A DNA stretch of 64,000 nucleotides from Szabonella alba. Its GTDB lineage: Bacteria > Pseudomonadota > Alphaproteobacteria > Rhodobacterales > Rhodobacteraceae. Below, piece after piece: positions 27,535 to 42,435 of the stretch. Position numbers and translations under genes: made by a program. A model generated the notes under the pieces. The model saw only the letters and a program-made list of their open reading frames with translations. It was not told the origin of the DNA and made no database searches. The stretch spans positions 1-64,000 of the forward strand of contig NZ_JAESVN010000010.1 in NCBI RefSeq assembly GCF_016765775.1. The letters are read 5' to 3'. The first letter of the stretch is position 1. Every line of letters starts with the position of its first letter.

Positions 27535-28545
27535 TCAGATCAGCGGCTTGCCCCCGGTCACTGCAATGGTTGCGCCCGAGATGTAGCTTGACATCGGTTC
27601 GGCCAGCATCACGTAGGCCGAGGCCAGTTCCACCGGCTGTGCCGGACGCCCCATCGGATAGTTTTCACCGAAATGCGCGACTTCCCGGCCCGACATGCTG
27701 CCCGGGATCAGCGGTGTCCAGACCGGCCCGGGGGCCACGCAATTCACCCGGATGCCCTTCTCTGCCAGCATCTGTGCCAACCCGCCTGTGAAGTTCTGGA
27801 TTGCCCCCTTGGTCGTGGCATAGGCCAGCAATGAGGGGTTCGGCATATCGGAATTGATCGAGGCGGTGTTGATGATGGCGCTGCCACGGCCCATATGCGG
27901 CAATGCCGCTTTGACCAGATAGAACATGGAATGGATGTTCACCGCAAAGGTGCGCTGCCATTCCTCATCCGGGATGTCGGTCAGCTCGTCAAAGCTTTGC
28001 TGATGGGCGGCGTTGTTCACCAGAATGTCGATCCGGCCGAATTCACGCACCGCGCCCCCGATGATGGCGCGGCAATGCGCGGGATCCGCGATATCGCCCT
28101 TCATCTGCATGCAGCGCCGCCCGCATTGTTCGACCAGCCCTGCGGTATCGGCCGCATCTTCGGACTCGTCCAGATAGCACAGCACGATATCGGCGCCTTC
28201 GCGGGCATAGGCAATCGCGACCGCGCGTCCGATGCCGCTGTCGGCGCCGGTGATCAGCGCGATCATGCCCGCCAGTCGGCCCCTTCCCTGCCAGCTTTCC
28301 TCGCCATGGTCGGGGCGCGGGTCCATCTTGCGGAAACTGCCGGGCAGGTCCTGCGTCTGTTCGGGAAAGGGCGGCCGCGGATAGGCGGCAGGCCGGAGGG
28401 GGGCCTCTTGCCGGTCCGGATCCGGGTTCGGCGGGCGGCCCTCCTGCGCCGGGTCAGACCCTGAAACGCCCGGCGGGGTTTCGCGGACCGGCGCATTGAC
28501 GATGATCACGGAATGGTTGGACGGGTTCTGCTTGGCGTCGGTCAT
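27535..28545 (-). CDS. Stress-type short-chain dehydrogenase/reductase (YghA/YhdF-like)
   Basis: This 336-residue SDR has an N-terminal extension of ~90 Pro/Arg-rich residues before the Rossmann fold. It shows the cofactor motif TGADSGIGRAVA, the NNAAHQ motif, and the catalytic Ser ... YATTKGA (Y-x-x-x-K). Proteins of this shape (YghA, YhdF, GsiB-neighbour type) are commonly stress-induced; the substrate is unknown. ATG 28545 is chosen because it begins MTDAKQNPSNHS after AGTTTCCCC leader sequence. An exact EcfG-type promoter (28576-28600) lies 30 bases upstream, so induction in the general stress response is likely. Confidence 0.85.
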   Translation of the reverse strand: MTDAKQNPSNHSVIIVNAPVRETPPGVSGSDPAQEGRPPNPDPDRQEAPLRPAAYPRPPFPEQTQDLPGSFRKMDPRPDHGEESWQGRGRLAGMIALITGADSGIGRAVAIAYAREGADIVLCYLDESEDAADTAGLVEQCGRRCMQMKGDIADPAHCRAIIGGAVREFGRIDILVNNAAHQQSFDELTDIPDEEWQRTFAVNIHSMFYLVKAALPHMGRGSAIINTASINSDMPNPSLLAYATTKGAIQNFTGGLAQMLAEKGIRVNCVAPGPVWTPLIPGSMSGREVAHFGENYPMGRPAQPVELASAYVMLAEPMSSYISGATIAVTGGKPLI

Positions 28546-28575: not shown

Positions 28576-28600
28576 AACCCGCAGCGGGTCGTGATGTTCC
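28576..28600 (-). promoter_or_regulatory. EcfG-type promoter of the SDR gene
   Basis: On the minus strand GGAAC, 17 bases, then GTTCAA: an exact match to the alphaproteobacterial general-stress consensus GGAAC-N16/17-(C/G)GTT. The -10 element ends 31 bases before the ATG at 28545. Confidence 0.75.
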
Positions 28601-28622
28601 GCCCGGGCTGCCCCAGCGACCG

Positions 28623-28647
28623 GGAACAATCTGCCCCGCCCCCGGTT
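28623..28647 (+). promoter_or_regulatory. EcfG-type promoter of the DUF892 gene
   Basis: GGAAC, 17 bases, GTTCAG on the plus strand, ending 41 bases before the ATG at 28688. It is back-to-back with the SDR promoter in the same 142-bp gap, giving a divergent stress promoter pair. Confidence 0.75.
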
Positions 28648-28687
28648 CAGGACAGACAATCCCCATCCGCGAAACAGGAGTGACGCC

Positions 28688-29185
28688 ATGAAAACGAAAA
28701 CGCTGGAAGATCTGTTCATCGACATGCTCAAGGACATCTATTACGCCGAACGCAAGATCCTGAAGGCGCTGCCCAAGATGGCGCGCAGCGCGCAGTCACC
28801 GGACCTGAAATCGGCCTTTGAGTCCCATCGCGACGAAACCGAAGGGCAGGTCGAACGTCTGCAGCAGGTTTTCGAGATGATCGGCAAGGCGGCGCGCGGC
28901 AAGACCTGCCCGGCCATCGACGGCATCATCGAGGAAGGTGAGGAAGTGATGGAGGGCTTCAAGGATTCCCCCGCGCTGGACGCAGGGCTTGTCGCCACCG
29001 CACAGGCGGTCGAGCATTACGAGATGGCACGCTATGGTACGCTGTGCGCTTGGGCCAAGCTGCTGGGCCACAAGGACGTGGTCGCGTTGCTGAAAAAGAC
29101 CCTGTCGGAGGAAGAAGCCACCGATGTGAAACTGACACGGCTGGCCGAGGGATCGGTCAATCAGGCGGCGGTCGAAGCGGCCTGA
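28688..29185 (+). CDS. DUF892 (YciE/YciF) ferritin-like protein
   Basis: This 165-aa all-alpha protein belongs to DUF892, which forms a ferritin-like four-helix bundle. It begins with the family's signature TLEDLFIDMLKDIYYAERKILKALPKMA. Later helices carry the Glu/His residues of a di-iron-type site (HRDETEGQVERLQQVFE, and VEHYEMARYGTLCAWAKLLG). Family members are stress-induced, but their reaction is unproven. AGGAG lies eight bases before the ATG. A second member is encoded at 38220-38729. Confidence 0.9.
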   Translation: MKTKTLEDLFIDMLKDIYYAERKILKALPKMARSAQSPDLKSAFESHRDETEGQVERLQQVFEMIGKAARGKTCPAIDGIIEEGEEVMEGFKDSPALDAGLVATAQAVEHYEMARYGTLCAWAKLLGHKDVVALLKKTLSEEEATDVKLTRLAEGSVNQAAVEAA

Positions 29186-29201
29186 GGTGACGTGACCTGA
29201 G

Positions 29202-29236
29202 ATGGCGGGCGGGCCAAAACCGGCCCGCCCGTTTTG
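29202..29236 (+). terminator. Terminator after the DUF892 gene
   Basis: GGGCGGGCC (29207-29215) pairs with GGCCCGCCC (29222-29230), followed by GTTTT. This is a standard Rho-independent terminator 20 bases after the stop. Confidence 0.85.
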
Positions 29237-29655
29237 CAAGGCAGGATGCGGATAGCATGAAACCGTCTTCGGGCCCCGGGACCGCAGTTTTCCGGGCCGT
29301 TCTCTGTATGAGATCCCGCAGCTGCAAAGCGGCTTGATCTGCCCTGACCGGAAGGCAGGAGGTCCCGGTGCTGGTCCCGGTGCTGGTCATCGACTGACGG
29401 GAAAGCGGTGTCACACTAACCGGCACCGTCGTTCCCAGCGGTCAGGGCTTTCCCAGCGGTCAGGGCCGCGAGGTGATCGAACGGGCGCAGCCCCCATCAA
29501 CTGGACGCCAAGACCCGCTTTGCCATCGGATCCGACGGCGTGCTGCACGGTCGGGCTTGCGCTGCAAGGTGGCAGAATTCGGTCCGGTGCAGGGCGTTAC
29601 GCCACTGACCCTGCCACCCAATCAGTGATGAACGGCGATCAGTGATGAACGGCGA
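29237..29655. other. Intergenic with three tandem duplications
   Basis: No gene is supported. Three short tandem duplications are visible: a 12-bp unit at 29361-29384 (GGTCCCGGTGCT twice), an 18-bp unit at about 29432-29466 (TTCCCAGCGGTCAGGGC twice), and a 17-bp unit at 29621-29654 (ATCAGTGATGAACGGCG twice), the last ending at the sigma-factor stop codon. Confidence 0.6.
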
Positions 29656-30216
29656 TCAATGGTTCACCACGATAAGATCATCGACGCGCCGCGCCCCAAG
29701 ATCCTCCATTACCAGATTGCGGGCGCGGTTGATGCGGCTTTTCACGGTGCCGATGGCACAATCCGTGATCCGCGCCACCTCCTGATAGCTTTCTCCCATC
29801 AGAAAAACCAGTACCAGCGCCTCACGATAGGTCTGCGGCAGACGGCCGATCGCGGCCATCAGACGATTTCCGGCAATCTGCGCGTCATGCCGGGGAAAGC
29901 AGATCACATTGCCCGAAACGCAATCGCTGGACCCAACCCGTTCCCGCGCGCGCTTGGTCACGCGGGTCAGAAAGGAATTGCGCATGATGGTGAACAGCCA
30001 GGCCCGCAGATTGGTGCCGGTCTGAAAGCTGTCCACATTGGCCAGCGCCTTCATCAGGGTTTCCTGCACCAGATCATCCGCCTCATCCGCGCCGCGCATC
30101 AGGTTGCGCGCGTAGATCCGCAAGGCGGGGATCATTTCAACCAGTTCATCCGCGGTGGTCTCACCCGCTGATGTCTGGTCATATGTCGCTGTTCGGGTCT
30201 TGTCTGATCTGGACAT
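29656..30216 (-). CDS. ecfG: ECF sigma factor of the general stress response (EcfG-like)
   Basis: This 186-aa sigma-70 family protein has region 2 (DLVQETLMKALANVDSFQTG then TNLRAWLFTIMRN) and region 4 (LPQTYREALVLVFLMGESYQ, then EVARITDCAIGTVKSRINRARN). The pattern is that of the EcfG group, which drives the alphaproteobacterial general stress response and is held off by NepR until PhyR is phosphorylated. A NepR-like gene lies upstream in the same direction; no PhyR is in the window. An exact EcfG consensus promoter (30246-30270) lies 30 bases upstream, suggesting self-activation. GGGAG precedes the ATG. Confidence 0.85.
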   Translation of the reverse strand: MSRSDKTRTATYDQTSAGETTADELVEMIPALRIYARNLMRGADEADDLVQETLMKALANVDSFQTGTNLRAWLFTIMRNSFLTRVTKRARERVGSSDCVSGNVICFPRHDAQIAGNRLMAAIGRLPQTYREALVLVFLMGESYQEVARITDCAIGTVKSRINRARNLVMEDLGARRVDDLIVVNH

Positions 30217-30245
30217 CGCAATCTCCCTGATCCTTTGCCGGATTC

Positions 30246-30270
30246 AACCCCGGCCAGATCAGGGCGTTCC
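30246..30270 (-). promoter_or_regulatory. EcfG-type promoter in front of the sigma-factor gene
   Basis: On the minus strand GGAAC, 17 bases, GTTGAA. The -10 ends 30 bases before the sigma-factor ATG, leaving room for a short leader with GGGAG. This matches the autoregulation known for ecfG genes. Confidence 0.75.
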
Positions 30271-30378
30271 GCGTCATTCCCGCCATGGGCGCATATTCGC
30301 GCAATGTGGTCTGTCGCGGTGAAGTAAGGCACGGGGCAATCGGGACCGCCAAAGTCCTGCCGGGTATCCCCGAAGCGA

Positions 30379-30603
30379 TCAGTCCGCCGGTTTTTCAGTA
30401 TCAGACGGCATATCGCGGTCGGAATCCTTCTGCCTGGCATCCAGCGCGCGGCCCAGTTCGGCGGCCATCATCCGCAGCCGTTCCGGCACGGGTTCGGCGG
30501 CGATCTGCTCGGCCAGTTCCTTCGCTTCATGCGAAAGCGGCTCCTCCTCATACGGCGGTTGTGCGGGAGGTTGCCCGGGAAAAGGGATTGCGCGACGATT
30601 CAT
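30379..30603 (-). CDS. nepR: NepR-like anti-sigma factor candidate (74 aa)
   Basis: This 74-residue acidic protein contains LAEQIAAEPVPERLRMMAAELGRAL, which resembles the conserved NepR core (a helix, then NEPVPDRF, then a second helix) that clamps EcfG. It lies just upstream of the EcfG-like sigma gene on the same strand, the usual nepR-ecfG order, with a 160-bp gap holding a sigma promoter. The N-terminal ~25 residues are Pro-rich and likely disordered. The call rests on the short core motif and the context, so it is moderately sure. Confidence 0.65.
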   Translation of the reverse strand: MNRRAIPFPGQPPAQPPYEEEPLSHEAKELAEQIAAEPVPERLRMMAAELGRALDARQKDSDRDMPSDTEKPAD

Positions 30604-30751
30604 AAATCTGTTTCCAGCCTGCCCGAGCGTTTAACGCCCCAATCGCCGACCCTAAGCAATGATCCCGCGCGATTACAGCCCCCCGGTGATCAAATCCTTG
30701 AAAGCGGGGCAGGCCCGCCACGCCGGACCCGTCGGCGTGGCCGGCCATCGG

Positions 30752-31459
30752 TCAGTCCTGCCCGCCGCGCGGCCGGACCATGCCATGGCTGGCGTCATCA
30801 CCGCTGTGTTGATCGTGGCCGTGCATCCCGTCATCGCGCAGGCGCAGATTGTTCTGGATATGGCCAATGCCGGAACAGGCTTCGACGCAGTCCTCGGCCC
30901 AGCGGCGGGCCATGCGGGTATCGACAAACCCATCCAGCGTGACCTCTCCGCCAGCAACCGTGACACTGATGCCCGAGGCATCCAGCTTGTCGTCATGGCC
31001 CAGCAGGTCACAGACATCCTCATGGATCCGTTCATCCGACCGCCTGTAGCCCTTCGGCCCCTTGCCACGATGCGGGCCGGTTTCGGGCTGTGGCGACCTG
31101 TCCTGCGGTCTGTCGGAGCGGGTATCCTGCCGAGAGGGGAAATCTCCCCGGCCCACCGCGTCGTTGCGCGCGGGATCGTCCCAGCCTCCGGCCATTCCCG
31201 GGCCGCGTTCGCGGTTCAGCCCGCCGTAATTGGCCGGATCCCAGTCGCGGCGATCCCGGTCGCGCCCCTCGCCATGCCATAGATCACCGCGATTGCGGCC
31301 CCGGTCATCCTCGGTATAGCCCTGACTGGCCCTTTGGTCACGATATCCGTCTTCATTGCGATCCCGCCCCGACCTGTCCTGTTCGCGACTGTCCTGCGGG
31401 CGTTCGCCCCGGCCACGGTCCGGCGGCATATCCTGCCCGTCATCCCGTCTGGTTGCCAT
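30752..31459 (-). CDS. BON-domain protein with a long charged disordered N-terminus
   Basis: A 235-residue protein. The first ~140 residues are Arg/Asp/Gly-rich repeats (RDRRDWDPANYGGLNRERGP and similar) and look disordered. Residues ~145-215 form a BON domain (DERIHEDVCDLLGHDDKLDA, then VTVAGGEVTLDGFVDTRMARRWAEDCVE, GIGHIQNNLRL), a fold often found in envelope stress proteins that bind membranes or phospholipids. No signal peptide is visible, so location is unclear. ATG 31459 is chosen; the frame extends upstream through the promoter. An exact EcfG-type promoter lies 53 bases upstream. Confidence 0.8.
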   Translation of the reverse strand: MATRRDDGQDMPPDRGRGERPQDSREQDRSGRDRNEDGYRDQRASQGYTEDDRGRNRGDLWHGEGRDRDRRDWDPANYGGLNRERGPGMAGGWDDPARNDAVGRGDFPSRQDTRSDRPQDRSPQPETGPHRGKGPKGYRRSDERIHEDVCDLLGHDDKLDASGISVTVAGGEVTLDGFVDTRMARRWAEDCVEACSGIGHIQNNLRLRDDGMHGHDQHSGDDASHGMVRPRGGQD

Positions 31460-31511
31460 GGATCCACTCCTTCTGTCCTGGGTCTGCGGCACCGCGCCGC
31501 CACGGGGAGTC

Positions 31512-31536
31512 AACCATTCCTCTGCCGCATTGTTCC
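31512..31536 (-). promoter_or_regulatory. EcfG-type promoter of the BON-domain gene
   Basis: On the minus strand GGAAC, 17 bases, GTTGAC; an exact consensus match ending 53 bases before the ATG at 31459. A weaker plus-strand look-alike (TGAAC-N17-GTT, 31572-31596) points toward the GFA gene. Confidence 0.75.
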
Positions 31537-31715
31537 ACCGGACCCCGCCACGGCCCGGCCCGGATCGGATCTGAACATTCTCCACCCGCAGGGGTTCAAC
31601 CTTGCCCGCGACGGCTTCATCTGTTTTCTGAAGGCATCCCGGACCTGCGCCGTAGATCTTGCGACGCAGGTGCGCCAAGACCAGACACGGCAGTTGCAAG
31701 GAAAGGAAAAGGGCC

Positions 31716-32102
31716 ATGCGCTATGAAGGGGGCTGTCTTTGCGGCAAGGTCCGGTTCGTGGCGACGGGTGCGCCCTATCGCGTCGGGATCTGTCACTGCA
31801 TCGACTGCCGCAAGCATCACGGCGCGCTGTTTCACGCCTCGGGCATCTTTCCGGCCGAAGCGGTGACGATCACCGGACCCACGCGCGACTTCCGGGGGCG
31901 GCATTTCTGCCCTGAATGCGGGTCACCGGTCTTCGGGCGCACAGATGATGAAATCGAGATCAATCTGGGTGCGCTGGACCAGACCGATCAACTGACGCCC
32001 AGTTATGAACTCTGGACCCTGCGGCGCGAAAGCTGGCTGCCAGCGTTTCCGCTTCGCGGGTTTCTGAAAGACCGCGAAAGCGGCAGCAGGCATCAGGACT
32101 AA
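31716..32102 (+). CDS. GFA-family (CENP-V/GFA domain) zinc protein
   Basis: A 128-aa protein of the glutathione-dependent formaldehyde-activating (GFA) family. It opens MRYEGGCLCGKVRF and carries the zinc ligand set CLCG, CHCIDCRKHH and FCPECGSPVFG. Family members bind zinc; many have unknown substrates despite the name. AAGGAAAAGG precedes the ATG. It is divergent from the BON-domain gene; a one-mismatch EcfG site at 31572-31596 could serve it, but its distance of ~120 bases makes this tentative. Confidence 0.88.
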   Translation: MRYEGGCLCGKVRFVATGAPYRVGICHCIDCRKHHGALFHASGIFPAEAVTITGPTRDFRGRHFCPECGSPVFGRTDDEIEINLGALDQTDQLTPSYELWTLRRESWLPAFPLRGFLKDRESGSRHQD

Positions 32103-32148
32103 CGCATCCCCCTGTCGCGGCGCGCGCGGATCTTGCCCTGCCCCGGAT

Positions 32149-32832
32149 TCAGCCAAGTTTCGGCGCCGGTACCGCTACCATCGCCCAATTGTCCGCCCCG
32201 CAATTCGGACAGTCCGCCGCAAGATCGCCAAGCCTGCCGCAATTGAGACAGCAGCGCGCGCCGACCTGCGCCCTGTCGGGATCATGGGCTTCGACCGGCG
32301 GCATGATCGGCAGACCGGTCAGCGGCGGATCGGCGGCAAAGACCGAAAGCTGCCCCGATGGTTCCATATAGGCCCGATGAACCGAGCCCAGATTGCGCAC
32401 CCCTTTCAGCCGCAGCAGTTCCATCAGTTCCAGACTGCCAATCTGCCTTGCCCCCATCAGACTAACGCGCATTACCCCGTTGGTCATCACCTCGACCGGG
32501 CGGCCGTCGAAAATCCGCTTGGCGATCTGAACCCGCCGGATCGCGTGATCAATCGCCTTGTCGATGGCGATGATGACAAAGATCACCAGCATCGCATGGA
32601 AAAGCGGCACTTCCGGATAGAACAGCGAATCCCCCACAGCCGAACCCAGCGCGATGACCAGCAGGAACTCGATCAGGGAAAGCTGTGAAATGCTGCGCCC
32701 GCCGATCCAGCGCAAAAGCAGCATGGTCCAGGGCCAGATGATGGCGATCCGCAGCAGGATTTCCAGCAGGAAAAGCGGAGGATCCTCCCCAAGAAACATC
32801 CGCTGCAGGTCAAGGGGAATGACAGGGTCCAT
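32149..32832 (-). CDS. DUF421 (YetF-like) membrane protein with a C-terminal zinc ribbon
   Basis: This 227-residue protein has three N-terminal membrane segments (about residues 18-105) and a cytoplasmic DUF421 domain (VEVMTNGVMRVSLMGARQIG, then ELMELLRLKGVRNLGSVHRAYMEPSGQLSVF), as in YetF/YcaP proteins. The last ~40 residues hold CLNCGRLGDLAADCPNCG, a C-x2-C ... C-x2-C zinc ribbon. Function is unknown. It lies next to the stress genes but without an exact EcfG promoter. Confidence 0.85.
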   Translation of the reverse strand: MDPVIPLDLQRMFLGEDPPLFLLEILLRIAIIWPWTMLLLRWIGGRSISQLSLIEFLLVIALGSAVGDSLFYPEVPLFHAMLVIFVIIAIDKAIDHAIRRVQIAKRIFDGRPVEVMTNGVMRVSLMGARQIGSLELMELLRLKGVRNLGSVHRAYMEPSGQLSVFAADPPLTGLPIMPPVEAHDPDRAQVGARCCLNCGRLGDLAADCPNCGADNWAMVAVPAPKLG

Positions 32833-32906
32833 TCCGGCACAACTCCATCTGACCGATTGCCGCAGGACCGCCCCGAGACTTCACTGGTTTGCAGCATTGG
32901 GGTCGA

Positions 32907-34268
32907 TCAATGTCCGATCGCCTCGCCGGATTGACGAATTTCCGCGACCTCGGCTTCGGTAACGGGTTCTGCCGCATTGCCCCAGGCTTGCCGCAGGAAA
33001 CTGGCCAGTTCGGCAATCTCGGCATCATCCAGCCGGTCCTTGTAGCCCTGCATCACCAGCGGCATCGGCCGTTTCTCGGTGCCCTCGACCCGGGCACCCT
33101 GCAGGATGATCGAGACAAGCGGCGCGATCTCGGACGATGTGACCAGCGAATTGCCCTGCAGCGCCGGGAAGATCCCCGGTGAGCCGCGACCGGTCACGAA
33201 ATGGCATTGCGCGCAATTGTCGAGATAAAGCCGCGCGCCCAAGGGCATGTCGGGTTGCGCCCCGGTCAGCATCCGCGCGGTGTCCGCCCCTTCCGCATTG
33301 GCCTGCGCATAGGGTATCGAAAGCGGGCCAGTGGCCACGGCCTCCTCGGGGGCCTCATGCTGCAGACGATCCGCCGCGCGCAGGAAACGGGCAATGGCGA
33401 TGATGTCATCATCCGTCAGATGTTGCAGCGAATGATCGACGACAAGGCCCATCTCGCCATTGGCGGTGGATTCGAAATTGCGCCCGGTAGCCAGAAAGGT
33501 TGTCAGTTCCTGGATCGGCCAATGGCGGATGCGGCTGCCCTGCCCCCGCAAGGGGGGCGCTTCCTGCCCGGCGATGAAACCGCCGGTCAGAAAGTCAGGT
33601 TCACCGGCGGCAATACCGTCCTGCCCCATATAGACGGTGCGGGGGCTGTGACAAGCCGCGCAATGGCCCGGGCCTTCGACCAGATACTGCCCGCGATCCA
33701 GCACCGGATCGCCCATCGTGCCGTCAAAGCCGTTGTCATGGCTCAGGATCGCCCAGTTCAGCACCCGGATGCCCCACCGCTGATTGAACGGTAAGGGCAG
33801 TTCAGGCTCGGGCACCGGGCTGTTGACCGGTTCCACCTCGTCCATGAAGTAACTGTAAAGCGCGCGGATATCCCGCTCGGTCAGCATGCGGTAGTTTTCA
33901 TAGGGCATCGCGGGGTAAAGATGCGCCCCGTCGGGGCGCAGCCCGTCGATCATTGCGGCGCGGAATTGCGGCAGGGTCCAGCTGCCGATGCCGGTTTCCG
34001 GGTCGGGGGTGATATTGGCGGTATAGATCGTGCCAAGCGGGCTTTCGATGGCGCGACCGCCCGCGAAATCCGGCCCGTTCTCGGCCGTGTGGCAGGCCAT
34101 GCAATCGCCCGCGCGCATGACATATTCGCCTTCACCGGGGCTGGCCGTCCAATCCGCAGGTACTGATTCCGACAGCGGCGAACGGCTGACCGGCAGCCAG
34201 ATGATGGCCACAAGGGCCATAATTCCCATCAGGACAAAAGCGGCGAGGATACGCAGAAATATCATCAT
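32907..34268 (-). CDS. Membrane-anchored triheme cytochrome c (alcohol/gluconate dehydrogenase type)
   Basis: A 453-aa cytochrome with one N-terminal membrane anchor (ILAAFVLMGIMALVAIIWL) and three CxxCH haem sites (CMACH, CAACH, CAQCH), the architecture of the cytochrome subunit of periplasmic gluconate and alcohol dehydrogenases. It passes electrons from the flavoprotein to the quinone pool. It lies just downstream of the GMC flavoprotein and small subunit, so the three form a membrane-bound dehydrogenase. Either of two adjacent ATGs (34268 or 34265) may start it. Confidence 0.9.
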   Translation of the reverse strand: MMIFLRILAAFVLMGIMALVAIIWLPVSRSPLSESVPADWTASPGEGEYVMRAGDCMACHTAENGPDFAGGRAIESPLGTIYTANITPDPETGIGSWTLPQFRAAMIDGLRPDGAHLYPAMPYENYRMLTERDIRALYSYFMDEVEPVNSPVPEPELPLPFNQRWGIRVLNWAILSHDNGFDGTMGDPVLDRGQYLVEGPGHCAACHSPRTVYMGQDGIAAGEPDFLTGGFIAGQEAPPLRGQGSRIRHWPIQELTTFLATGRNFESTANGEMGLVVDHSLQHLTDDDIIAIARFLRAADRLQHEAPEEAVATGPLSIPYAQANAEGADTARMLTGAQPDMPLGARLYLDNCAQCHFVTGRGSPGIFPALQGNSLVTSSEIAPLVSIILQGARVEGTEKRPMPLVMQGYKDRLDDAEIAELASFLRQAWGNAAEPVTEAEVAEIRQSGEAIGH

Positions 34269-34283
34269 GATCCTGTCCCCCTT

Positions 34284-36053
34284 TCAGGCCAGTGGCCCGG
34301 GATTGCGCAGATACTGGCGCCGGATCGCATCCACCGCCCAATAGGCCAGCCCGCCCACCAGTCCGGTGGGATTGTATTGCGTGTTCTGAACGAAAGCCCC
34401 GGCCCCGGTGACAAAGACATTATGTTTGTCCCAGGCCTGCAGATAGCGGTTCACCGCCCCGGTTTCGGGCGTGGCCCCCATGATCGTACCACCGGTATTA
34501 TGCGTGGTCTGATAGGGGCGCACGTCATAGCGGCTGTTATAATCCTTGTAACTCGACTGCATCACATCGGGCTGCATCGACCTCGCGATTTCCTCGATCT
34601 TTTCCTTCAGATAGGCATTCATCCGCAGCTCATTCGGATGCCAGTCAAATGTGATCCGCATCAGCGGACGGCCATGGCGGTCGCGATAGGTGGGATCCAG
34701 ATCGCAGTAATGCCCCCGGTAGGACATGACTGACCCATGATGCCCGATGCTCATCTGATGGCCATACCATTCGGCGATCCCAGATTTCCATTCCGCCCCC
34801 CAGGCCGGCGTGTCCTGCGGCAGCGGCATCGACCGGATCGGCTGGCCATTGGTCTGTGCGGATGAGATATAGGCCCCGCCGATGAAGCCCAGCGCGCCGA
34901 AGTCATTCGCGCTCATCCCGAAATCGTCAATGCAGACGCCGTTGATGCCCGAGCCGATAAAGGGGTTGAAATGCTCATCCCGAAAGAACATCGAGGTGGA
35001 GCCGGTGATCTGATAGCCATAATTCTTGCCGGTCACCCCCTGACCCGAGACCGGATCATAGGGCGTTCCGATGCCCGACAGCAGCATCAGCCGGACATTC
35101 TCGATCTGATAGGCGGCAAGGATCACGATATCGGCGGGCTGAAACACCTCTTCGCCCGCTTCCTCATCGAAATAGGTGACGCCGGTCGCGGTCTGCCCGT
35201 CTGCTGCCATCTCGACACGCAAGACCTCGGCCCCGGTGCGATAGCTGAAATTCGGCTTGCGGAACAATGCCGCAAGGATCGTCGTCTGGGGTGAGGATTT
35301 GGAATACTGGTAGCAGCCATAGCGTTCGCAAAAGCCGCAGAAATTGCACGCCCCCATCTGCATGCCATATTCATTGACATAAGAGGTCGAGGCATTGCCG
35401 CCCGGACGCAGAAAGGGATGATAACCCATCGCCCGCGCGGCCTCGGCGAACTTTATGCCATTATAGGTAACGGGCAACGGCGGCATCGGATAATCGCCCG
35501 ACCGCCAGCCCTCGAACGGATTGCCCCCCTCCTGCACCTCGCCATTGATATTGCCTGCAGCGCCTGTAATCCCGGCAACCCGCTCAAACCGGTCGAAATA
35601 GGGTTCAAGCTCATCATAGGTGACGGGGTAATCCCCGATTGTCATATCCTCGGGAATGATCTCTTCGCCCCATGTGTCGCGGATATGGCTGCGCAACTGC
35701 ATTTCAATCGGCTGCGGCCGCCAGTTCTGGCCGTTCCAGTGCACGCCCGATCCGCCCACGCCATTGCCCAGCAGGAACGACCCCCATTTGCGCATCGGCA
35801 GCGCGGTTTCATTCAGATTGCGGCGGATGGTGACGGTGGACTGGGCCGGGCGGAGCATCATGTTATGCCGCTCTCCCTGGCTCAGCTCGTCAATCATGTT
35901 GGGATAGCGCATCTCGGGCACCGTCTCACGGTTGGGACCGCGTTCCAGCGCCAGAATCTCCAGCCCTTCCTGTGCCAGTTCCATCCCCATGATCGCCCCG
36001 GTCCAGCCAAGGCCCACGATCACCACATCCTTTTTTGCATCGGTTCTGGCCAT
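34284..36053 (-). CDS. GMC-family FAD-dependent dehydrogenase, large subunit
   Basis: This 589-residue GMC oxidoreductase has the FAD-binding VVIVGLGWTGAI near the start and, at the C-terminus, THNTGGTIMG with the catalytic His-Asn region and QNTQYNPTGLVGGLAYWA. A cysteine cluster, CNFCGFCERYGC at about residue 235, resembles the 3Fe-4S ligand region of bacterial FAD-dependent sugar dehydrogenases. With the small subunit upstream and the triheme cytochrome downstream, it is a periplasmic dehydrogenase of the gluconate/glucose/alcohol type; the substrate cannot be named. It is in the operon led by an EcfG promoter. Confidence 0.9.
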   Translation of the reverse strand: MARTDAKKDVVIVGLGWTGAIMGMELAQEGLEILALERGPNRETVPEMRYPNMIDELSQGERHNMMLRPAQSTVTIRRNLNETALPMRKWGSFLLGNGVGGSGVHWNGQNWRPQPIEMQLRSHIRDTWGEEIIPEDMTIGDYPVTYDELEPYFDRFERVAGITGAAGNINGEVQEGGNPFEGWRSGDYPMPPLPVTYNGIKFAEAARAMGYHPFLRPGGNASTSYVNEYGMQMGACNFCGFCERYGCYQYSKSSPQTTILAALFRKPNFSYRTGAEVLRVEMAADGQTATGVTYFDEEAGEEVFQPADIVILAAYQIENVRLMLLSGIGTPYDPVSGQGVTGKNYGYQITGSTSMFFRDEHFNPFIGSGINGVCIDDFGMSANDFGALGFIGGAYISSAQTNGQPIRSMPLPQDTPAWGAEWKSGIAEWYGHQMSIGHHGSVMSYRGHYCDLDPTYRDRHGRPLMRITFDWHPNELRMNAYLKEKIEEIARSMQPDVMQSSYKDYNSRYDVRPYQTTHNTGGTIMGATPETGAVNRYLQAWDKHNVFVTGAGAFVQNTQYNPTGLVGGLAYWAVDAIRRQYLRNPGPLA

Positions 36054-36056
36054 GGG

Positions 36057-36779
36057 TCAGGCCCTCTCGCCGCTGATCGAGACGGGGCCCAGCGGATAGC
36101 GCACGTTATGCTGCCCCACCCAGTCCAGGTAATGCGCCCGCGCGCCCGGAAAACCGATATGCACCCAGGCCGCCATGCCGTGATTGCCGCCATGGATGGG
36201 ATCGGAAAAATACCCTTCCTTGGTATTGGCCAGCAGGATCTTGAAGAAATCCCGGATCTCGGGGGCCAGCGGCACCTCTTCCGCCTCAAGCCGGGTCAGC
36301 GCCTCATCCTGCGCCTCGGTCTCCAGTCCGGCAAAGGGCGCTCCAAGGGTATCGCGGCACCAGTCGTCAAAGACCGGGATCGCCGCGCGATACACCTCGG
36401 CCGGGCTGAGCGGTGTCTGCCAGCCGAATTCGGGCGCTGCATCGGCCTGATGCGGGCCTGCCATGTACCAGTCACTGGCCTGTCCGAAATTTCCGTCCAG
36501 CTGGCGGTCGATGAAAACCGGCACCCGCGCCTCGATCGCGCCCGGTCCCGCGCCCTCTGACGGGATCAGCCGGGCCACGGCCGCCAGTACGAAAGCCCAT
36601 TCCCCGGGGGTGAAGAATTCCGGCGCATAATCCTCAAGCGGCGGCAGGTCCGCCTGTGCCATCGCGGGAAACGGCGCACTGAGCCCGACCATCGCAAGGC
36701 TTGCGGCGGAGACCTGCAGAAACTGGCGGCGGGCGCGGCTGGCGGGGGGGAAAAGCGGGGCCTCGGGGGGAAAGGTCAT
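36057..36779 (-). CDS. Gluconate 2-dehydrogenase subunit 3-like protein with Tat signal
   Basis: A 240-aa protein with a Tat signal (SRARRQFLQVSAASLAMVGLS), consistent with carrying the folded flavoprotein partner across the membrane. The mature part matches the small-subunit family (EFFTPGEWAFVLAAVARLIP, FIDRQLDGNFGQASDWYMAG, and ILLANTKEGYFSDPIHGGNHGMAAW). ATG 36779 is chosen; the open frame extends far upstream without meaning. It leads the operon with the GMC and cytochrome genes. An exact EcfG-type promoter lies 60 bases upstream. Confidence 0.88.
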   Translation of the reverse strand: MTFPPEAPLFPPASRARRQFLQVSAASLAMVGLSAPFPAMAQADLPPLEDYAPEFFTPGEWAFVLAAVARLIPSEGAGPGAIEARVPVFIDRQLDGNFGQASDWYMAGPHQADAAPEFGWQTPLSPAEVYRAAIPVFDDWCRDTLGAPFAGLETEAQDEALTRLEAEEVPLAPEIRDFFKILLANTKEGYFSDPIHGGNHGMAAWVHIGFPGARAHYLDWVGQHNVRYPLGPVSISGERA

Positions 36780-36838
36780 GTCGTTTCCTCGGATGAACTG
36801 GAGGCTGGAAGCGGCATTCGCGATGCGCCTGAGGGTTG

Positions 36839-36863
36839 AACCGGGCAAACCGCGAAATGTTCC
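36839..36863 (-). promoter_or_regulatory. EcfG-type promoter of the GMC dehydrogenase operon
   Basis: On the minus strand GGAAC, 17 bases, GTTCAA: exact consensus, 60 bases before the first ATG of the three-gene dehydrogenase operon. Confidence 0.72.
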
Positions 36864-36915
36864 CGGAATTCGGTAGCCGCATCCGGGGGGTGGTGTTGCG
36901 ACCTCTCGCCGTCCG

Positions 36916-36967
36916 TCTGCACGGCCCGCCTGCACGGGCCGCCTGCACGGGCCGCCTGCACGCGGGC
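36916..36967. repeat. 13-bp tandem repeat, about four units
   Basis: Units based on CCTGCACGGGCCG at 36929-36941 and 36942-36954, with imperfect copies at each end. It sits between two divergent EcfG-type promoters and outside any supported gene. Confidence 0.75.
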
Positions 36968-37008
36968 GTAATGGCACCCGGCTAAACGTTCGGCGGGAAC
37001 ATTTGGCG

Positions 37009-37033
37009 GGAACATTCGGGGGACCGCCCTGTT
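37009..37033 (+). promoter_or_regulatory. EcfG-type promoter of a small hydrophilic protein gene
   Basis: GGAAC, 17 bases, GTTGAA on the plus strand, 50 bases before the ATG at 37083. A second GGAAC at 36996 has no GTT at the right distance. Confidence 0.72.
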
Positions 37034-37082
37034 GAACGGGATGCGCAAGACGACATGCGCCTGTCCGTGAATGGAGGAAATC

Positions 37083-37289
37083 ATGGCAACGCAGAATCAG
37101 CACAATCCCACCCGGGACAATCAGAACCAAAAACACCCGAAGGATCCGGCCACGCAGGGCGGCACCCAGCAGCCGCAAAAGCAGCCCGGTCAGGACCAGA
37201 AAGGTCAGGACGCCCAGCACAAGCAGGGCGAACAGACCGGACGGGATGCCAAGGGCCACACGCCCGATAACCGGGATCAGAAACGCTGA
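37083..37289 (+). CDS. Small Gln/Lys/Asp-rich disordered protein (68 aa)
   Basis: This 68-residue protein is almost wholly hydrophilic (Gln, Lys, Asp, Asn, Pro), for example HNPTRDNQNQKHPKDPATQG, with no hydrophobic core, so it is surely disordered. GGAGGAA lies five bases before the ATG, a strong ribosome-binding site. An exact EcfG-type promoter precedes it. I do not recognise a named family; it resembles small stress-induced hydrophilins in composition. Confidence 0.7.
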   Translation: MATQNQHNPTRDNQNQKHPKDPATQGGTQQPQKQPGQDQKGQDAQHKQGEQTGRDAKGHTPDNRDQKR

Positions 37290-37381
37290 CCCCCACCAGC
37301 GTCACAACACAGGCGGCGGGGCTTCGGCCCTGCCGTCTGGCATTCGTGGCGGGCTTTTCGCGCCGCCAGTTGCAGTGATGC

Positions 37382-37406
37382 GGAACATTTCAAAGGCCAA
37401 AAGATT
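37382..37406 (+). promoter_or_regulatory. Near-consensus EcfG-type promoter
   Basis: GGAAC, 17 bases, ATTGAA: one mismatch in the -10 element (ATT for GTT). It ends 30 bases before the ATG at 37436, the same distance as at the sigma-factor gene. Confidence 0.5.
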
Positions 37407-37435
37407 GAAGCTGCATCAAACCGGAGGAACCCCAG

Positions 37436-37765
37436 ATGCCGAACGAACCCAAATTCGCCGCCGAAAAACGCCCGCCCCGGGCCGTGCCGCGCAAGAATGC
37501 GCAATCGGATCATGAAGGCTCCGCCCATCGGCCCGAGGAGTTCAAGGCCGGTGAATTAGAGGCGGGCGAAATCAAGTCCGGTGCGCCCGATCTGTCGCCT
37601 GAACAGAAACGCGCCGCGCCACAGGAAATCCGCAACGAGTCCACAGTGCAGGACACGGAGCAGGACAGCGATGCACCGTTGATCCCGCGCAGTCGCAACT
37701 TCGACAGCACCATAAGCGAAAATCGCGATCATTCGGGCCGGATCAACAAGCGCGACGACTGCTGA
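37436..37765 (+). CDS. Hydrophilic disordered protein (109 aa), function unknown
   Basis: A 109-aa charged protein (MPNEPKFAAEKRPPRAVPRK...) with Glu/Lys/Arg/Asp-rich sequence and no membrane or signal segment, ending SGRINKRDDC. GGAGGA precedes the ATG with good spacing. A one-mismatch EcfG promoter lies 30 bases upstream of the start. Together with the 68-aa gene just before it, it forms a pair of likely stress-induced hydrophilic proteins. No family recognised. Confidence 0.65.
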   Translation: MPNEPKFAAEKRPPRAVPRKNAQSDHEGSAHRPEEFKAGELEAGEIKSGAPDLSPEQKRAAPQEIRNESTVQDTEQDSDAPLIPRSRNFDSTISENRDHSGRINKRDDC

Positions 37766-38219
37766 AACCACAAGAAGCGACAGCGGCCCAAAAGGCGCTG
37801 CCACAAACAGGCCGGTCGGTACGGGTCCGCCGGTTCTGCCGCCCCCTGCGCGCACGCCTTTTGGTCTGGCCTTTCTCTCGGCGCGCAAAAGGAACCCGTC
37901 CTGCACGGAACATTCGCACCTCTTGCCGGTTGATCCCCTGCTTGCCCCCGAAACGGCAGGAAGAAACCGCAGGCAAGACAGGTCAGGAATCCGTTCGACC
38001 CGCAGCCGCCTGCTTGTCCAAGAACAACCGGTCTTTGCCGGATCAGGACCACGCCCACACCGGTGCCATTCGGGCAGCGGACCCATCGAAGGCCCTCGCA
38101 CCCTTCGGGGTAAATGAAAGCGGCATAGACAGGAACTGCCCACACGGCCGGATCACGACGCGTCTGCCCGTTTCAGCCGCGCGACCAATGATCGCGGCAC
38201 CATATCGAAGGGAAACTGA
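37766..38219. other. Intergenic with an exact EcfG promoter and a ~290-base leader
   Basis: About 450 bp without a supported gene. It contains an exact EcfG-type promoter (37907-37931) that points toward the DUF892 gene at 38220 but is 288 bases away. The transcript would carry a long leader or could encode a small RNA. Open frames here lack ribosome-binding sites. Confidence 0.5.
37907..37931 (+). promoter_or_regulatory. EcfG-type promoter with a distant downstream gene
   Basis: GGAAC, 17 bases, GTTGAT on the plus strand: exact consensus. The next supported start is 38220, a second DUF892 gene. Confidence 0.65.
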
Positions 38220-38729
38220 ATGGACGACAATATCCGTGAAAATTATGTCGCATGGCTTCGCGATGCCCATGCGATGGAAGAGCAGGCCCTGACGATGATG
38301 CGCGGGAAGCTGTCGCGACTTGAGAATTACCCCGAACTCAGCGCCCGGATCAAAACGCATATCTCGGAAACCGAACGCCAGGCGGCGGCCTTGCTGGACC
38401 TTCTGAACACCCGCGCCTCGGGCAGTTCGATGATGAAGGACGCGATGGGAAAGATGGCCGCGTCCGGTCAGGCCCTCAGCGGTTTCTTTGCCATCGACGA
38501 GGTCGTGAAAGACTGCATGGGCAGCTATGCCTTCGAACATATGGAAATCATTGCCTACAAGGTGTTGATCGCCACCGCCGACCGCCTGGGGGATCACAGG
38601 GCGGTGTCCGTCCTTCAGCAGATCCTTGTCGAGGAACAGGACATGGCGGACTGGCTGTTCGAACACACCGACACGATCACACGGGATTTTCTGAAGCGCG
38701 ACGAGGCCGATCTGCAGGCCAGCCGATGA
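38220..38729 (+). CDS. Second DUF892-type ferritin-like protein
   Basis: A 169-residue helical protein: ENYVAWLRDAHAMEEQALTM at the N-terminus, then LSARIKTHISETERQAAALLDLL, FAFEHMEIIAYKVLIATADRLG-like helices and LVEEQDMADWLFEHTDTITR. Regularly placed Glu/His residues match a ferritin-like four-helix bundle of the DUF892 group. AAGGGAA lies upstream of the ATG. It is likely stress-induced, given the promoter 288 bases upstream. It is only distantly similar to the 28688 protein. Confidence 0.85.
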   Translation: MDDNIRENYVAWLRDAHAMEEQALTMMRGKLSRLENYPELSARIKTHISETERQAAALLDLLNTRASGSSMMKDAMGKMAASGQALSGFFAIDEVVKDCMGSYAFEHMEIIAYKVLIATADRLGDHRAVSVLQQILVEEQDMADWLFEHTDTITRDFLKRDEADLQASR

Positions 38730-38880: not shown

Positions 38881-40026
38881 ATGAGAAAACTTCTTTTGAC
38901 CACCACGCTTGTCTCAGCCCTGTCAGCCGCACCGCTTGTGGCGCAGACCACCGATCCGGCAGTCTCGTCGGACGGAACTGCATCGAGCGGGACCACTGCC
39001 AACCGGGCAGACATGTCCGCCGTCACGGTGCCCGAAGGGTTCAACCAGCAGGACATGGCGCTGACCGCCGACGATCTGCTGGGCGCAACACTTTATGACG
39101 TCACCGGCGACTCGATCGGCGAAGTGGTGGATCTGGTGCTGCATATCGAGGCCTCGGAAGAGGTGATGCCCGGCGCTGGCGCCTCGATGGACACGACCAC
39201 ATCCGGCGGGGCCGGTGTCTCCAGCGCGGGCAACCAAAGCATGACCGGCACGGATCCGGCTGGCACGGATCAGGGCACGGCTGGCACGACCGGCACGGCA
39301 ACCGAATCGGTCAGCGGTGACAGCGGGGTGACAGGCACCGCCCGAACAATGACCGGAACCACGACCGGAACGATGCCCGAATCCGATGGCAGCACGGACG
39401 CGACCGGCGCACCCATCTCGGGCAGCAGCGCGGATGGCATGAGCGGCGGGACCACCGGAACCGACGGGACGACTGCAACCGACGGGTCCGGCGGGCCGCC
39501 CGAAAGCGCTGGCGCCGCCAGCGGTTCGGCAGGGGAATCCAGCAACGCTGACTCCGGCACTTCCGCGACCGGGACCGCCACCGAAGGCTCCGCCAGCACT
39601 GACGCAAACACCTCATCGGGCGCAGGCGGCACGACGGATATGCAAACCGGCACCACCGGCAGCAATACCGCAACCGGCTCGACAATGGCCACCGGCAGCG
39701 ACAGCGCCGCCGTCGACAGCACCCTGCCCGCCACCACCGTGCCCGACACCGGCGGGCCAGCCGCCACCGGCACAGACTCTGGCGGCATGAACAGCAGCAG
39801 TGCCGATCAGGGCCAGCCGACCCATGCCGTTCTGGATATCGGCGGCTTCCTTGGCATCGGCGTGCACAGCGTTGCGGTGCCGGTCAGCGATCTCGCGATC
39901 TACAGCAATGACAGCGAAACCCGCGTCTATCTGCCCTGGACCCGCGAACAGATCGAGGCGCTGCCGGAATATGATGCGGACAACCCGGACTCGCTGGGTC
40001 GTTCGGGCATGCCGATCACGCAATGA
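38881..40026 (+). CDS. Exported PRC-barrel protein interrupted by a Ser/Thr/Gly-rich insert
   Basis: A 381-aa protein with a signal peptide (to about SAAPLVAQ). A PRC-barrel domain begins LLGATLYDVTGDSIGEVVDLVLHIE (residues ~66-90), is interrupted by ~220 residues of low-complexity Ser/Thr/Gly/Asp sequence (about 95-310), and resumes HAVLDIGGFLGIGVHSVAVPVSDLAIY. In ordinary exported PRC-barrel proteins these two halves are adjacent, so the tract is an internal insertion in a loop. AAGGAG precedes the ATG. Its function is unknown; such proteins are frequent near stress genes. Confidence 0.8.
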   Translation: MRKLLLTTTLVSALSAAPLVAQTTDPAVSSDGTASSGTTANRADMSAVTVPEGFNQQDMALTADDLLGATLYDVTGDSIGEVVDLVLHIEASEEVMPGAGASMDTTTSGGAGVSSAGNQSMTGTDPAGTDQGTAGTTGTATESVSGDSGVTGTARTMTGTTTGTMPESDGSTDATGAPISGSSADGMSGGTTGTDGTTATDGSGGPPESAGAASGSAGESSNADSGTSATGTATEGSASTDANTSSGAGGTTDMQTGTTGSNTATGSTMATGSDSAAVDSTLPATTVPDTGGPAATGTDSGGMNSSSADQGQPTHAVLDIGGFLGIGVHSVAVPVSDLAIYSNDSETRVYLPWTREQIEALPEYDADNPDSLGRSGMPITQ

Positions 40027-40142: not shown

Positions 40143-40346
40143 ATGACCCACTGCCCCAAAGTCCCGGCCCTGCCGGGAAACGAGATCCTGCGTCAGGTCG
40201 AACTTCATGTGATCGACCAACGCCAGCAACAGATTGATCCGGCCGGACGGCACCGGACCGATCCGAACCGCCGCAATGACGGCAACCGCAAGCAACCGGG
40301 CGGCTCCTCGGATCGCAGCCCGCCCGAAACCAGCACAGGAGACTGA
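40143..40346 (+). CDS. Possible small protein upstream of katE (67 aa)
   Basis: A 67-residue frame with AAAGG seven bases before its ATG ends one base before the katE start, so it could be translated together with katE. The first half ([20 protein letters not shown] and onward) has a plausible amphipathic helix; the second half is Arg/Asp/Pro/Ser-rich. No family recognised. It may instead be katE leader sequence. Confidence 0.35.
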
Positions 40347-40347
40347 G

Positions 40348-42435
40348 ATGACCAAGTCCGACCGCGCAAGACTTCACGACCAGACACTTGCCCGGGGGCC
40401 GGGCGGCACGCTGCATCAGACCGCCCCGGAAGGGACGCAACCCCTGACCACTGCACAGGGCGGGCCGGTCGCCGACGATCAGAACACGCTGAAGGCCGGG
40501 GCGCGTGGTCCGGCCCTGATCGAGGATTTCCATTTCCGCGAAAAGCTGTTCCATTTCGACCATGAACGCATTCCCGAACGGGTGGTCCATGCCCGGGGCT
40601 ATGGCGCGCATGGCTATTTTGAGACCTACGACACGCTTTCCGAATATACCTGCGCCGATATCTTCCAGCGCGCCGGAGAGATCACCCCGGTCTTTGTGCG
40701 CTTCTCAACCGTGGCCGGATCCAAGGGCAGCGTCGATCTGGCCCGCGACGCGCGTGGTTTCGCCGTCAAGTTCTATACGCAAGAGGGCAACTGGGATCTG
40801 GTCGGCAACAATATCCCGGTCTTTTTCATTCAGGACGCAATCAAGTTTCCAGACATCATCCATGCGGTGAAGCCGGAACCGGACCGCGGCTTTCCGCAGG
40901 CCCAGTCGGCGCATGACAATTTCTGGGATTTCATCAGCCTGACGCCTGAATCCATGCATATGATCATGTGGGTCATGTCGGATCGCGCCATCCCCCGGTC
41001 CTTCCGCTTCATGGAGGGTTTCGGCGTCCATACCTTCCGCCTGCTGGATGCGCAGGGCAAATCCACCTTTGTCAAATTCCTCTGGAAGCCCAAGCTGGGC
41101 CTGCAATCGGTGATGTGGAGCGAGGCCGTGAAGATCAACGGCGCCGATCCCGATTTCCACCGCCGCGACCTGTGGAATGCCATCGGATCGGGCGATTTTC
41201 CGGAATGGGAGCTGTGCCTTCAGCTGTTCGATCAGGACTTCGCCGACGGGTTTGAGTTCGACATTCTCGACCCGACCAAACTCATCCCCGAAGAGATCCT
41301 CAAGCCGGTGCCCGTGGGGCGGCTGGTGCTGGACCGGATGCCGGACAATTTCTTTGCCGAAACCGAACAGGTCGCCTTCATGACGCAGAACGTGCCGCCG
41401 GGGATCGACTTTTCCGATGATCCGCTGCTGCAGGGGCGGAATTTCAGCTATCTCGACACGCAGTTGAAACGGCTGGGCAGTCCGAATTTCACCCATATCC
41501 CGATCAATGCCCCGAAATGCCCCTTCGCGCATTTTCAGCGGGACGGGCATATGGCGATGCGCAACCCGAAGGGCCGGGCCAATTATCAACCGAATTCATG
41601 GCAGGAAGGTCCACGAGAGGATCCCGCACGCGGACATCTCAGCCATGCCACCCCGGCCGATGGCCCGAAACAGCGGCTGCGGCCCGAAAGCTTTGCCGAT
41701 CACTACAGTCAGGCCCGGCAGTTCTATCAAAGCCAGACCGCCACCGAGCAGAACCATATCGCCGATGCGCTGATCTTCGAATTGTCGAAATGCGAAACGC
41801 CGGTCATCCGCGAACGCATGGTTGCCCATCTGCTGAACATTGACGCCCCGCTGGCCGGGAAGGTTGCCGACCGGCTGGGGATCGCGGCGATGCCCGAGCC
41901 TGCCGACAGCGCCGTGCCTTTGCGCGATCTGCCGGCATCGCCGGCGCTGAGCATCGAGCGCAATGGTCCGGACAGCTTTGCAGGCCGCAAGCTGGGGGTT
42001 CTGGTCTGTGACGGTGTCGATGCCACATTGCTGCAGGAACTGTCGGACGCGCTGCACGAAGAAGGCGCCACGCTGGAGATCGTGGCCCCAAAAATCGGCG
42101 GTGTGACGGCGTCCGATGGCAGCAGGATCCCGGCGATGCATATGGTCGAGGGTGGCCCTTCGGTCCTCTTCGACGCGGTGGCGCTGGTCCTGACGGCCGA
42201 AGGGGCCGCGCGTCTGGCGCAAGAGGCCCCGGCGCGCGATTTTGTCCGCGATGCTTTCGCGCATTGCAAGTTCATCGCCCACAGCCCGGGCGCGGCGGCC
42301 CTGCTGAAGGCCGCGGGGATCGACCCGGCGGCGGATGAGGGGATTATTGCGCTGGAACCCGGCACCTCTGCCGGTTTCGTTGCCGCCTGCCGCCCGCTGC
42401 GGCTCTGGTCGCGCGAAGGGGCGGGCAAACCCTGA
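40348..42435 (+). CDS. katE: Large-subunit (clade 2) monofunctional catalase
   Basis: This 695-aa haem catalase of the HPII/KatE type degrades hydrogen peroxide. It has the catalytic His in [15 protein letters not shown], the Asn in [14 protein letters not shown] and the proximal haem Tyr in [14 protein letters not shown]. The length, and a C-terminal DJ-1/PfpI-like flavodoxin-fold domain from about residue 540 ([20 protein letters not shown]), mark clade 2. ATG 40348 is chosen with AGGAGA seven bases upstream. It sits at the end of the stress island; in many bacteria KatE is under general stress control, but no exact EcfG site is seen here. Confidence 0.96.

Follow-up and report, generated by a model that had tools for sequence, protein, structure and literature searches.

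Variant EcfG-type promoter sites clustered around a non-canonical sigma factor gene in Szabonella alba

Described EcfG paralogues and the Szabonella locus

According to one published survey (PMC3892343), about half of complete alphaproteobacterial genomes carry extra copies of the sigma factor EcfG, an occurrence that, in its words, "has not satisfactorily been explained". Here, we analyzed 64,000 nucleotides of Szabonella alba (contig NZ_JAESVN010000010.1, positions 1 to 64,000; hereafter the window), in which an EcfG-type sigma factor gene lies within an island of GGAAC-N17-GTT sites. This block is probably the local regulon of the sigma factor, a non-canonical member of the EcfG type, with promoters that carry a variant -10 element.

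Several described systems resemble this locus in part. Rhizobium etli EcfG2 (PF00052; PMC3892343) is likewise an EcfG-type sigma encoded outside a nepR-phyR locus; unlike in the window, that study found neither a promoter motif for its regulon nor a nearby anti-sigma gene. Its presumed counterpart on a plasmid of R. etli IE4803 has yciF beside it, with yciE and P450 genes not far away, and of the 11 GGAAC-N17-GTT sites around it, six precede an annotated start by 21-86 bases, but this plasmid sigma is ~ 42% identical to the window sigma and is not placed in its clade. Sinorhizobium meliloti RpoE5, too, is a second sigma of the ECF15 type. It is targeted directly by canonical RpoE2, has a GGAACC promoter and is adjoined by an unannotated open reading frame (ORF) similar to the RsiA (NepR-type) anti-sigma factors. 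In contrast to the situation proposed here, its overexpression yielded a single putative target, and a clustered regulon is not mentioned in the accessible part of that report (PMC6180224). The paralogous sigmas EcfG1/EcfG2 of Sphingopyxis granuli and EcfG1-6 of Methylobacterium extorquens share the features of shared or graded promoter use and a flexible -10 element, whereas the accessible accounts do not mention variant promoters grouped locally around an orphan sigma. Among the matches listed in a search of open-access titles and abstracts, which leaves most subscription journals outside, none concerned clustered variant promoters around orphan EcfG genes.

Promoter sites in the window and their -10 variant

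A scan of the window for exact GGAAC-N17-GTT matches returned the seven sites, at the positions and on the strands, that a first-pass annotation had reported, and no others. They span 9.4 kb (28576-37931), and six of the seven lie 29-59 bases before a start codon, much as had been claimed. On the minus strand, GGAACATC..GGGTT (28576..28600) ends 30 bases before an SDR gene, GGAACAAT..TGGTT (31512..31536) 52 bases before a BON-domain gene and GGAACATT..CGGTT (36839..36863) 59 bases before a three-gene dehydrogenase operon (G2dh3-GMC-cytochrome). The sigma gene's own site, GGAACGCC..GGGTT (GGAACG; 30246..30270, minus strand), ends 29 bases before its start and is the sole island site without A at position 6. 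On the plus strand, GGAACAAT..CGGTT (28623..28647) precedes a DUF892 gene by 40 bases and GGAACATT..CTGTT (37009..37033) a 68-amino-acid protein gene by 49 bases; a one-mismatch site, GGAACATT..GATT (37382..37406), stands 29 bases before the gene of a 109-amino-acid protein. For the seventh exact site, GGAACATT..CGGTT (37907..37931, plus strand), the script found no plausible start codon within 130 bases downstream, and a structured leader or small RNA behind it was unsupported by a folding z-score of -0.17. Upstream of the 68-amino-acid protein gene, a 13-base direct repeat (36992-37016) doubles the GGGAACATT -35 element of site 37009-37033.

The pattern alone means little, because the genome of S. 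alba (4.2 Mb, 52 contigs) holds fewer exact N17 matches (96) than matches to the same pattern reversed as a control (135). The 8-base pattern is hence not enriched across the genome, and local density is what counts. With an expectation of 0.21 sites in 9.4 kb, the Poisson probability of at least seven is ~ 3e-9, uncorrected for the post hoc choice of the stretch. Dinucleotide shuffles of the window (n = 100) gave a mean of 1.3 matches and a maximum of 4, with at least seven in none. Spacers N12-N16, N18, N19, N21 and N23 gave 0-2 matches each in the window; the seven N20 matches are scattered, and four of the five N22 matches fall at 15163-18864.

The island is the densest 9.4-kb stretch of its genome for exact N17 matches, but it does not stand alone. 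A comparable density in intergenic DNA elsewhere, which the first-pass annotation named as grounds for refutation, is present in part: a cluster on contig C51 is locally as dense, and the sigma loci of relatives are clustered too. The second notable concentration, five exact sites at C11:143766-151942, surrounds the canonical phyR/nepR/ecfG locus. The C51 cluster comprises four sites in 2.6 kb (30772-33344), all of the form GGAACAA..CGCGTT (CGTT type), and may be a second cluster with canonical-type promoters.

The published canonical form is GGAAC-N16-CGTT (accessible parts of PMC7083833 and PMC3892343). By this measure the island sites are not the exact EcfG consensus promoters they had been taken for, as none of the seven carries a CGTT -10 element; six have GGTT and one has TGTT. 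To place this in the genome, coding potential was scored locally in the flanks of all 96 sites, and the genes of the window served to set the threshold. This left 48 non-coding sites, 7 in the island and 41 elsewhere, with overlapping opposite-strand matches counted apart. C precedes GTT at 0/7 island sites versus 28/41 other non-coding sites (p = 0.001), and at 9 of the 48 coding sites. The combination of A at position 6 with G or T before GTT is found at 6/7 island sites, compared with 5/41 non-coding sites elsewhere and 17/48 in the coding background; the script called a downstream gene start at none of those five. Since the CGTT form is missing from the island and frequent among non-coding sites elsewhere, a canonical regulon elsewhere in the genome seems to exist alongside a local variant one. 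As a separate observation, GGAACATGTATTCCGAACACGGGTT-like strings recur in many family genomes (e.g., G000:C4:30477) and are probably a conserved element that mimics the pattern and is unrelated to promoters.

The sigma factor, its relatives and its place in the stress response

The first-pass annotation called the local sigma gene (186 amino acids; 29656..30216, minus strand) EcfG-like. It is EcfG-type (ECF15-like) by its domains, with PhyR_sigma2 (2.7e-15), Sigma70_r2 and Sigma70_r4_2, but it is a paralogue, and canonical identity was rejected since the canonical locus lies on contig C11. There, the sole Pfam NepR (PF18557) match of the genome lies between PhyR (148112-148945, plus strand) and a minus-strand EcfG gene, with the PF18557 match and PhyR within C11:147.8-148.9 kb, and both divergent promoters of this locus read GGAACCAAACG..CGTT. 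The window sigma gene does not adjoin this nepR/phyR pair, and its product is 40% identical to the canonical EcfG of its own genome. In a quick tree of 69 rows, whose orphan rows were picked by similarity to the window sigma and lack four rows with wrongly cut ORFs, 34 of 36 orphan-type sigmas share one fork, apart from the 30 canonical EcfG sequences. The canonical fork also takes in two other paralogues from the same genome, while the window sigma sits in starred sets made up of orphan rows only (98, 99) and does not group with canonical EcfG. Fifteen alignment positions, some badly cut rows included, have differing majority residues (≥ 60%) in the two types; at one of them, tryptophan is present in 30/30 canonical sequences versus isoleucine or leucine in the orphan type. 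Encoded outside a nepR-phyR locus in a genome with a canonical system, the window sigma is a non-canonical (EcfG2-like) EcfG-type sigma.

The same kind of clustering is common around relatives of this sigma, contrary to the earlier expectation that so tight a grouping is unusual. Genome contigs were scanned with the sigma, and the best 80 of 543 loci were used; 33 loci with < 70% sigma identity, window included, form a non-redundant set. Around the 80 relatives, N17 sites number 471 and N18 sites 214, versus 35 for N15, 33 for N16, 27 for N19 and 52 for the reversed pattern. The non-redundant loci hold 198 N17 and 55 N18 sites, compared with 10-28 at each of ten other spacers. A strict promoter test required a start within 10-90 bases, a ribosome-binding-like motif and an ORF of at least 60 amino acids with codon bias; it was passed by 137/246 N17/N18 sites in 32 loci versus 9/81 sites at six control spacers. 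On plasmid DNA from Paracoccus aminovorans that carries annotation, an annotated start follows 10 of the 12 N17 sites at a distance of 29-63 bases. C precedes GTT at 4 of these 12 sites, and at none of the 11 in the R. etli plasmid island. Of 84 loci, two had a PhyR match. The relatives with the orphan sigma in such an island include Paracoccus denitrificans (DSM 413, locus L107).

From 150 candidate proteins behind these sites, 122 were scanned; 16 sigma genes and two others were among those excluded, and two sigma genes were kept. The families recovered among the 122 include DUF892 (15), SDR (6), BON (5), Ku (3), PLD (3), catalase (2), Mn-catalase (2) and Cu/Zn SOD (2).

At E ≤ 1e-43, the orphan sigma is present in 10 of the 246 family genomes, counting that of the window. 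The variant GGAACAW-N14-GGTT averages 8.5 matches in these 10 genomes versus 4.0 in the 236 without the sigma (p = 2e-4; p = 6e-4 minus the window's genome), and its reversed control runs in the opposite direction (0.7 with the sigma, 2.9 without). Half of the variant sites in the window's genome, and 5/15 in genome G246, are the island itself. In G246, the orphan sigma has 7 of 124 sites (100 of the 124 listed) no more than 8 kb away, and five of these, which make up the 5/15, are GGAACAA..GGTT; the sigma's own site is CGTT. At 30 canonical nepR/ecfG loci, C precedes GTT at 46 of 70 sites, and A at position 6 occurs together with GGTT at none.

The promoters of the relatives' sigma genes themselves differ from those of their neighbors. 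Within 150 bases of the sigma start, the non-redundant set has 22 exact sites, which come from 21 of its 33 loci. C precedes GTT at 16 of these 22 versus 43 of 231 neighbor sites (p = 3e-7), and A occupies position 6 at 5/22 versus 149/231 (p = 2e-4). The trend holds locus by locus, with 12 loci versus 2 for C before GTT and 13 versus 4 for position 6. Ten further loci were taken from nine genomes; a sigma-gene site is present in nine of these loci, with one of CGTT type in eight of them, but four of the ten repeat DNA already covered by earlier loci. Five of the six new loci have a sigma-gene site, all five CGTT, and three of these five encode sigmas 71-86% identical to earlier ones. Since the relatives' sigma promoter is mostly of CGTT type, it points to a cascade below PhyR-NepR-EcfG. 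NepR was matched in 12/12 genomes with the orphan sigma versus 23/55 without. Taken from the relatives and not from the window itself, this pattern suggests that the orphan sigma is placed below the canonical response.

A possible partner of the sigma is encoded just upstream of it, as nepR is relative to ecfG, by a 74-amino-acid ORF (30379-30603, minus strand), with the sigma's own site in between. Neither this ORF nor the base before GTT figures in the first-pass annotation. This ORF shares with NepR (PF18557; 3t0y chain B) its small size, its place upstream of an EcfG-type sigma and an E-P-V-P-E-R-L core. It differs from NepR in having R-L for R-F and an L-A-x-x-L-x-x-A-L tail for L-L-x-x-L-K. 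A regular expression for the core picked out 2 of 1052 small ORFs in the window and own-genome stretches, namely the true NepR and the 74-amino-acid ORF, and 0 of 10923 in shuffled sequence. Applied to 83 loci, it found 32 small ORFs, 17 of them within 1.5 kb of the sigma; the other 15 lie 4.3-5.2 kb away, all in rhizobial records. A looser length limit and a wider set raised the number to 34, and only 5 of the 33 non-redundant loci have such an ORF within 1.5 kb of the sigma. An alignment of 22 members (window plus 21 of the 34) matched canonical NepR with an hhalign E-value of 4.7e-7 and a probability of 92.6, and 15 of the 22 matched Pfam NepR at E ≤ 1 (best 2e-4), figures that are flattered because the members were gathered by a NepR-like core expression. 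The window ORF itself gave no Pfam hit and stayed below the NepR gathering cut-off. The structure of NepR in the PDB (3t0y, chain B) scored E 0.042 against the family, behind an unrelated kinase at 0.017. This protein, a divergent NepR-like candidate as judged from the family profile, may be the anti-sigma factor of the window sigma.

The block is read most economically as being under the joint control of the local EcfG-like sigma. The window sigma would direct RNA polymerase to GGAACA(A/T)-N14-(G/T)GTT, a variant promoter that would front the neighboring SDR, DUF892 and BON genes, the GMC dehydrogenase operon and the genes of the hydrophilic proteins, while CGTT-type promoters in the rest of the genome would be left to canonical EcfG. 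The window sigma would probably rank below the main PhyR-NepR-EcfG response, because the relatives' sigma promoter is usually of canonical type and close relatives were found only in genomes with NepR, and it would probably be restrained by the NepR-like 74-amino-acid protein. The sites with their spacing and distances, the difference in the -10 element, the separate position of the canonical locus, the recurrence around relatives and the co-occurrence with NepR are direct observations. From these we infer the sigma-promoter assignment, the cascade, the anti-sigma function and the stress role, less firmly for the cascade and the NepR-like anti-sigma than for the local regulon.

Other explanations account for part of these data. 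That the sites are chance matches is hardly credible: the 8-base pattern indeed lacks genome-wide enrichment (96 versus 135 reversed), but seven sites fall within 9.4 kb (P ~ 3e-9, uncorrected), six of them at promoter distance, and the enrichment around relatives is specific to the spacing. A more serious proposal, though still somewhat unlikely, is an ordinary general stress regulon in which canonical EcfG reads all island promoters and the orphan sigma acts as an amplifier of the same specificity, comparable to Caulobacter SigU, described as a mild amplifier in the accessible part of PMC4814048. The -35 element and the spacing common to both promoter types fit such an amplifier, as do the GGTT and TGTT boxes among canonical targets in other species. 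It accords poorly with CGTT at 28/41 non-coding sites elsewhere versus 0/7 in the island, and with variant sites being on average commoner in genomes that have the orphan sigma, though half of those in the window's own genome are the island.

It also appears improbable that the sigma is autonomous, i.e., autoregulated from 30246-30270 and held by its NepR-like partner alone, with no input from canonical EcfG. The non-canonical sigma promoter of the window (GGAACG..GGTT) and the adjacent NepR-like ORF would agree with this, whereas the mostly CGTT sigma promoters of relatives (16/22 including the window, 5/5 in further loci) and the NepR match in 12/12 genomes with the sigma would not. Equally doubtful is the idea that the base before GTT reflects promoter strength or local composition and not a different sigma. 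Changing TGTT or CATT to CGTT raised in vitro transcription in S. granuli (accessible part of PMC7083833), in agreement with an effect on strength, yet the difference recurs between sigma-gene and neighbor sites within the same loci (12 versus 2).

Several observations weigh against a local regulon of the non-canonical sigma placed below canonical EcfG. Canonical regulons elsewhere include GGTT and TGTT boxes: EcfG-dependent genes of S. melonis Fr1 have GGTT boxes (PMC6599016), canonical targets of S. granuli permit GGTT or TGTT with a flexible -10 (PMC7083833), and the M. extorquens consensus is C/GGTT, each according to the accessible part of the source; canonical EcfG may therefore use the island promoters too. 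A at position 6 was rejected as the sole mark of island promoters, as RpoE2 targets of S. meliloti include GGAACAA..CGTT, and at canonical loci the bases at position 6 and before GTT are coupled because the divergent promoters overlap. One relative's island (L246) has mixed promoter types, and three others (L249, L250, L253) have few sites. The tree supports the orphan and canonical forks with 90 each, short of the 95 that the tool takes as its mark, and leaves two rows unplaced, one of them the R. etli plasmid sigma. As to the cascade, an exact site within 150 bases of the sigma start is missing from 12 of the 33 loci, and genome G012, which has no NepR match, encodes a 42% identical sigma (1.6e-32) that was left outside the orphan set by its score. 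At the window's own sigma gene, the promoter (GGAACG..GGGTT) departs from the canonical type and does not show the cascade; a near relative of the locus (L032) has GGAACC..GGTT in this place.

A broader proposal, which we consider possible but hold tentatively, is a transferable second-tier stress cassette: an orphan sigma, a NepR-like anti-sigma and a contiguous G/T-GTT regulon that canonical EcfG uses poorly, with canonical EcfG switching the sigma on via CGTT. If true, this cassette recurs in Rhodobacterales and Rhizobiales, on chromosomes as well as plasmids, and it could explain why no motif emerged when the small R. etli EcfG2 regulon was searched for one. A clustered regulon, a promoter variant and a NepR-like partner would together give extra EcfG copies a concrete, checkable role. 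They also offer a one-base test of specificity between paralogues and the stress candidates DUF892, SDR, BON, GMC dehydrogenase and small hydrophilic proteins.

Genes of the island and neighboring features

The dehydrogenase operon (32907..36779, minus strand; Pfam, NCBIfam TIGR01409) consists of a gluconate 2-dehydrogenase subunit-3-like gene (36057-36779) with a TAT-signal match (TIGR01409) at the cut-off, a GMC oxidoreductase gene (34284-36053; Pfam) and a cytochrome c gene (32907-34268; Pfam) with three Cytochrom_C stretches. The same three genes occur in the same order on a plasmid island of Roseivivax marinus (L176), near orphan sigma, BON and PRC genes, with the GMC proteins 52% and the subunit 3 proteins 41% identical to those of the window. 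No exact site lies ahead of this second operon, but a one-mismatch site, GAAACATC..CTGTT, does. Among the best 80 of 543 loci, a GMC homologue was found in just one, at 26% identity. Judged from gene content, the dehydrogenase operon is a recurrent island member in two genera. A second island thus adds support to the stress candidates newly proposed in the first-pass annotation, the GMC dehydrogenase among them. In the same Roseivivax island, the PRC and CBS genes are preceded by similar GAAACAT..TGTT sites; with GAAACAT in place of GGAACAT and TGTT, the promoters there may reflect a lineage shift in the -35 element.

The remaining genes behind sites encode an SDR oxidoreductase of 336 amino acids (27535..28545, minus strand; Pfam adh_short_C2 7.5e-61), a DUF892 (YciF-like) protein (28688..29185, plus strand; Pfam DUF892 1.3e-65), a BON-domain protein with a long hydrophilic N-terminus (30752..31459, minus strand; Pfam BON 2.9e-14), the very hydrophilic 68-amino-acid protein (37083..37289, plus strand), recognized from its sequence as an ORF downstream of a site, and the hydrophilic 109-amino-acid protein (37436..37765, plus strand), likewise described from its sequence. 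A second DUF892/ferritin-like protein (38220..38729, plus strand; Pfam DUF892 7.9e-43) is the next called gene after the seventh site; with this nearest site 288 bases upstream, it is a doubtful member of the regulon. Regulon membership was rejected for the catalase (40348), PRC (38881), YetF and GFA genes, which, like this second DUF892 gene, have no exact site wholly within 300 bases; the GFA gene has a one-mismatch match. Beyond the island lie a PRC-barrel protein (38881-40026, plus strand) and a long catalase (40234-42435, plus strand), neither with an exact or one-mismatch GGAAC-N17/18-GTT site within 300 bases.

Elsewhere in the window, a large protein that resembles autotransporters is encoded at 22817-27076 (minus strand). 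It contains a very long Pro-Thr-Asp repeat, the DNA of which is an 18-base tandem array of ~ 76 copies (23765-25147). Curlin-associated repeats in three proteins (13037-14302, 15706-17898 and 17965-19203, plus strand) suggest a locus for a curli-like fibre.

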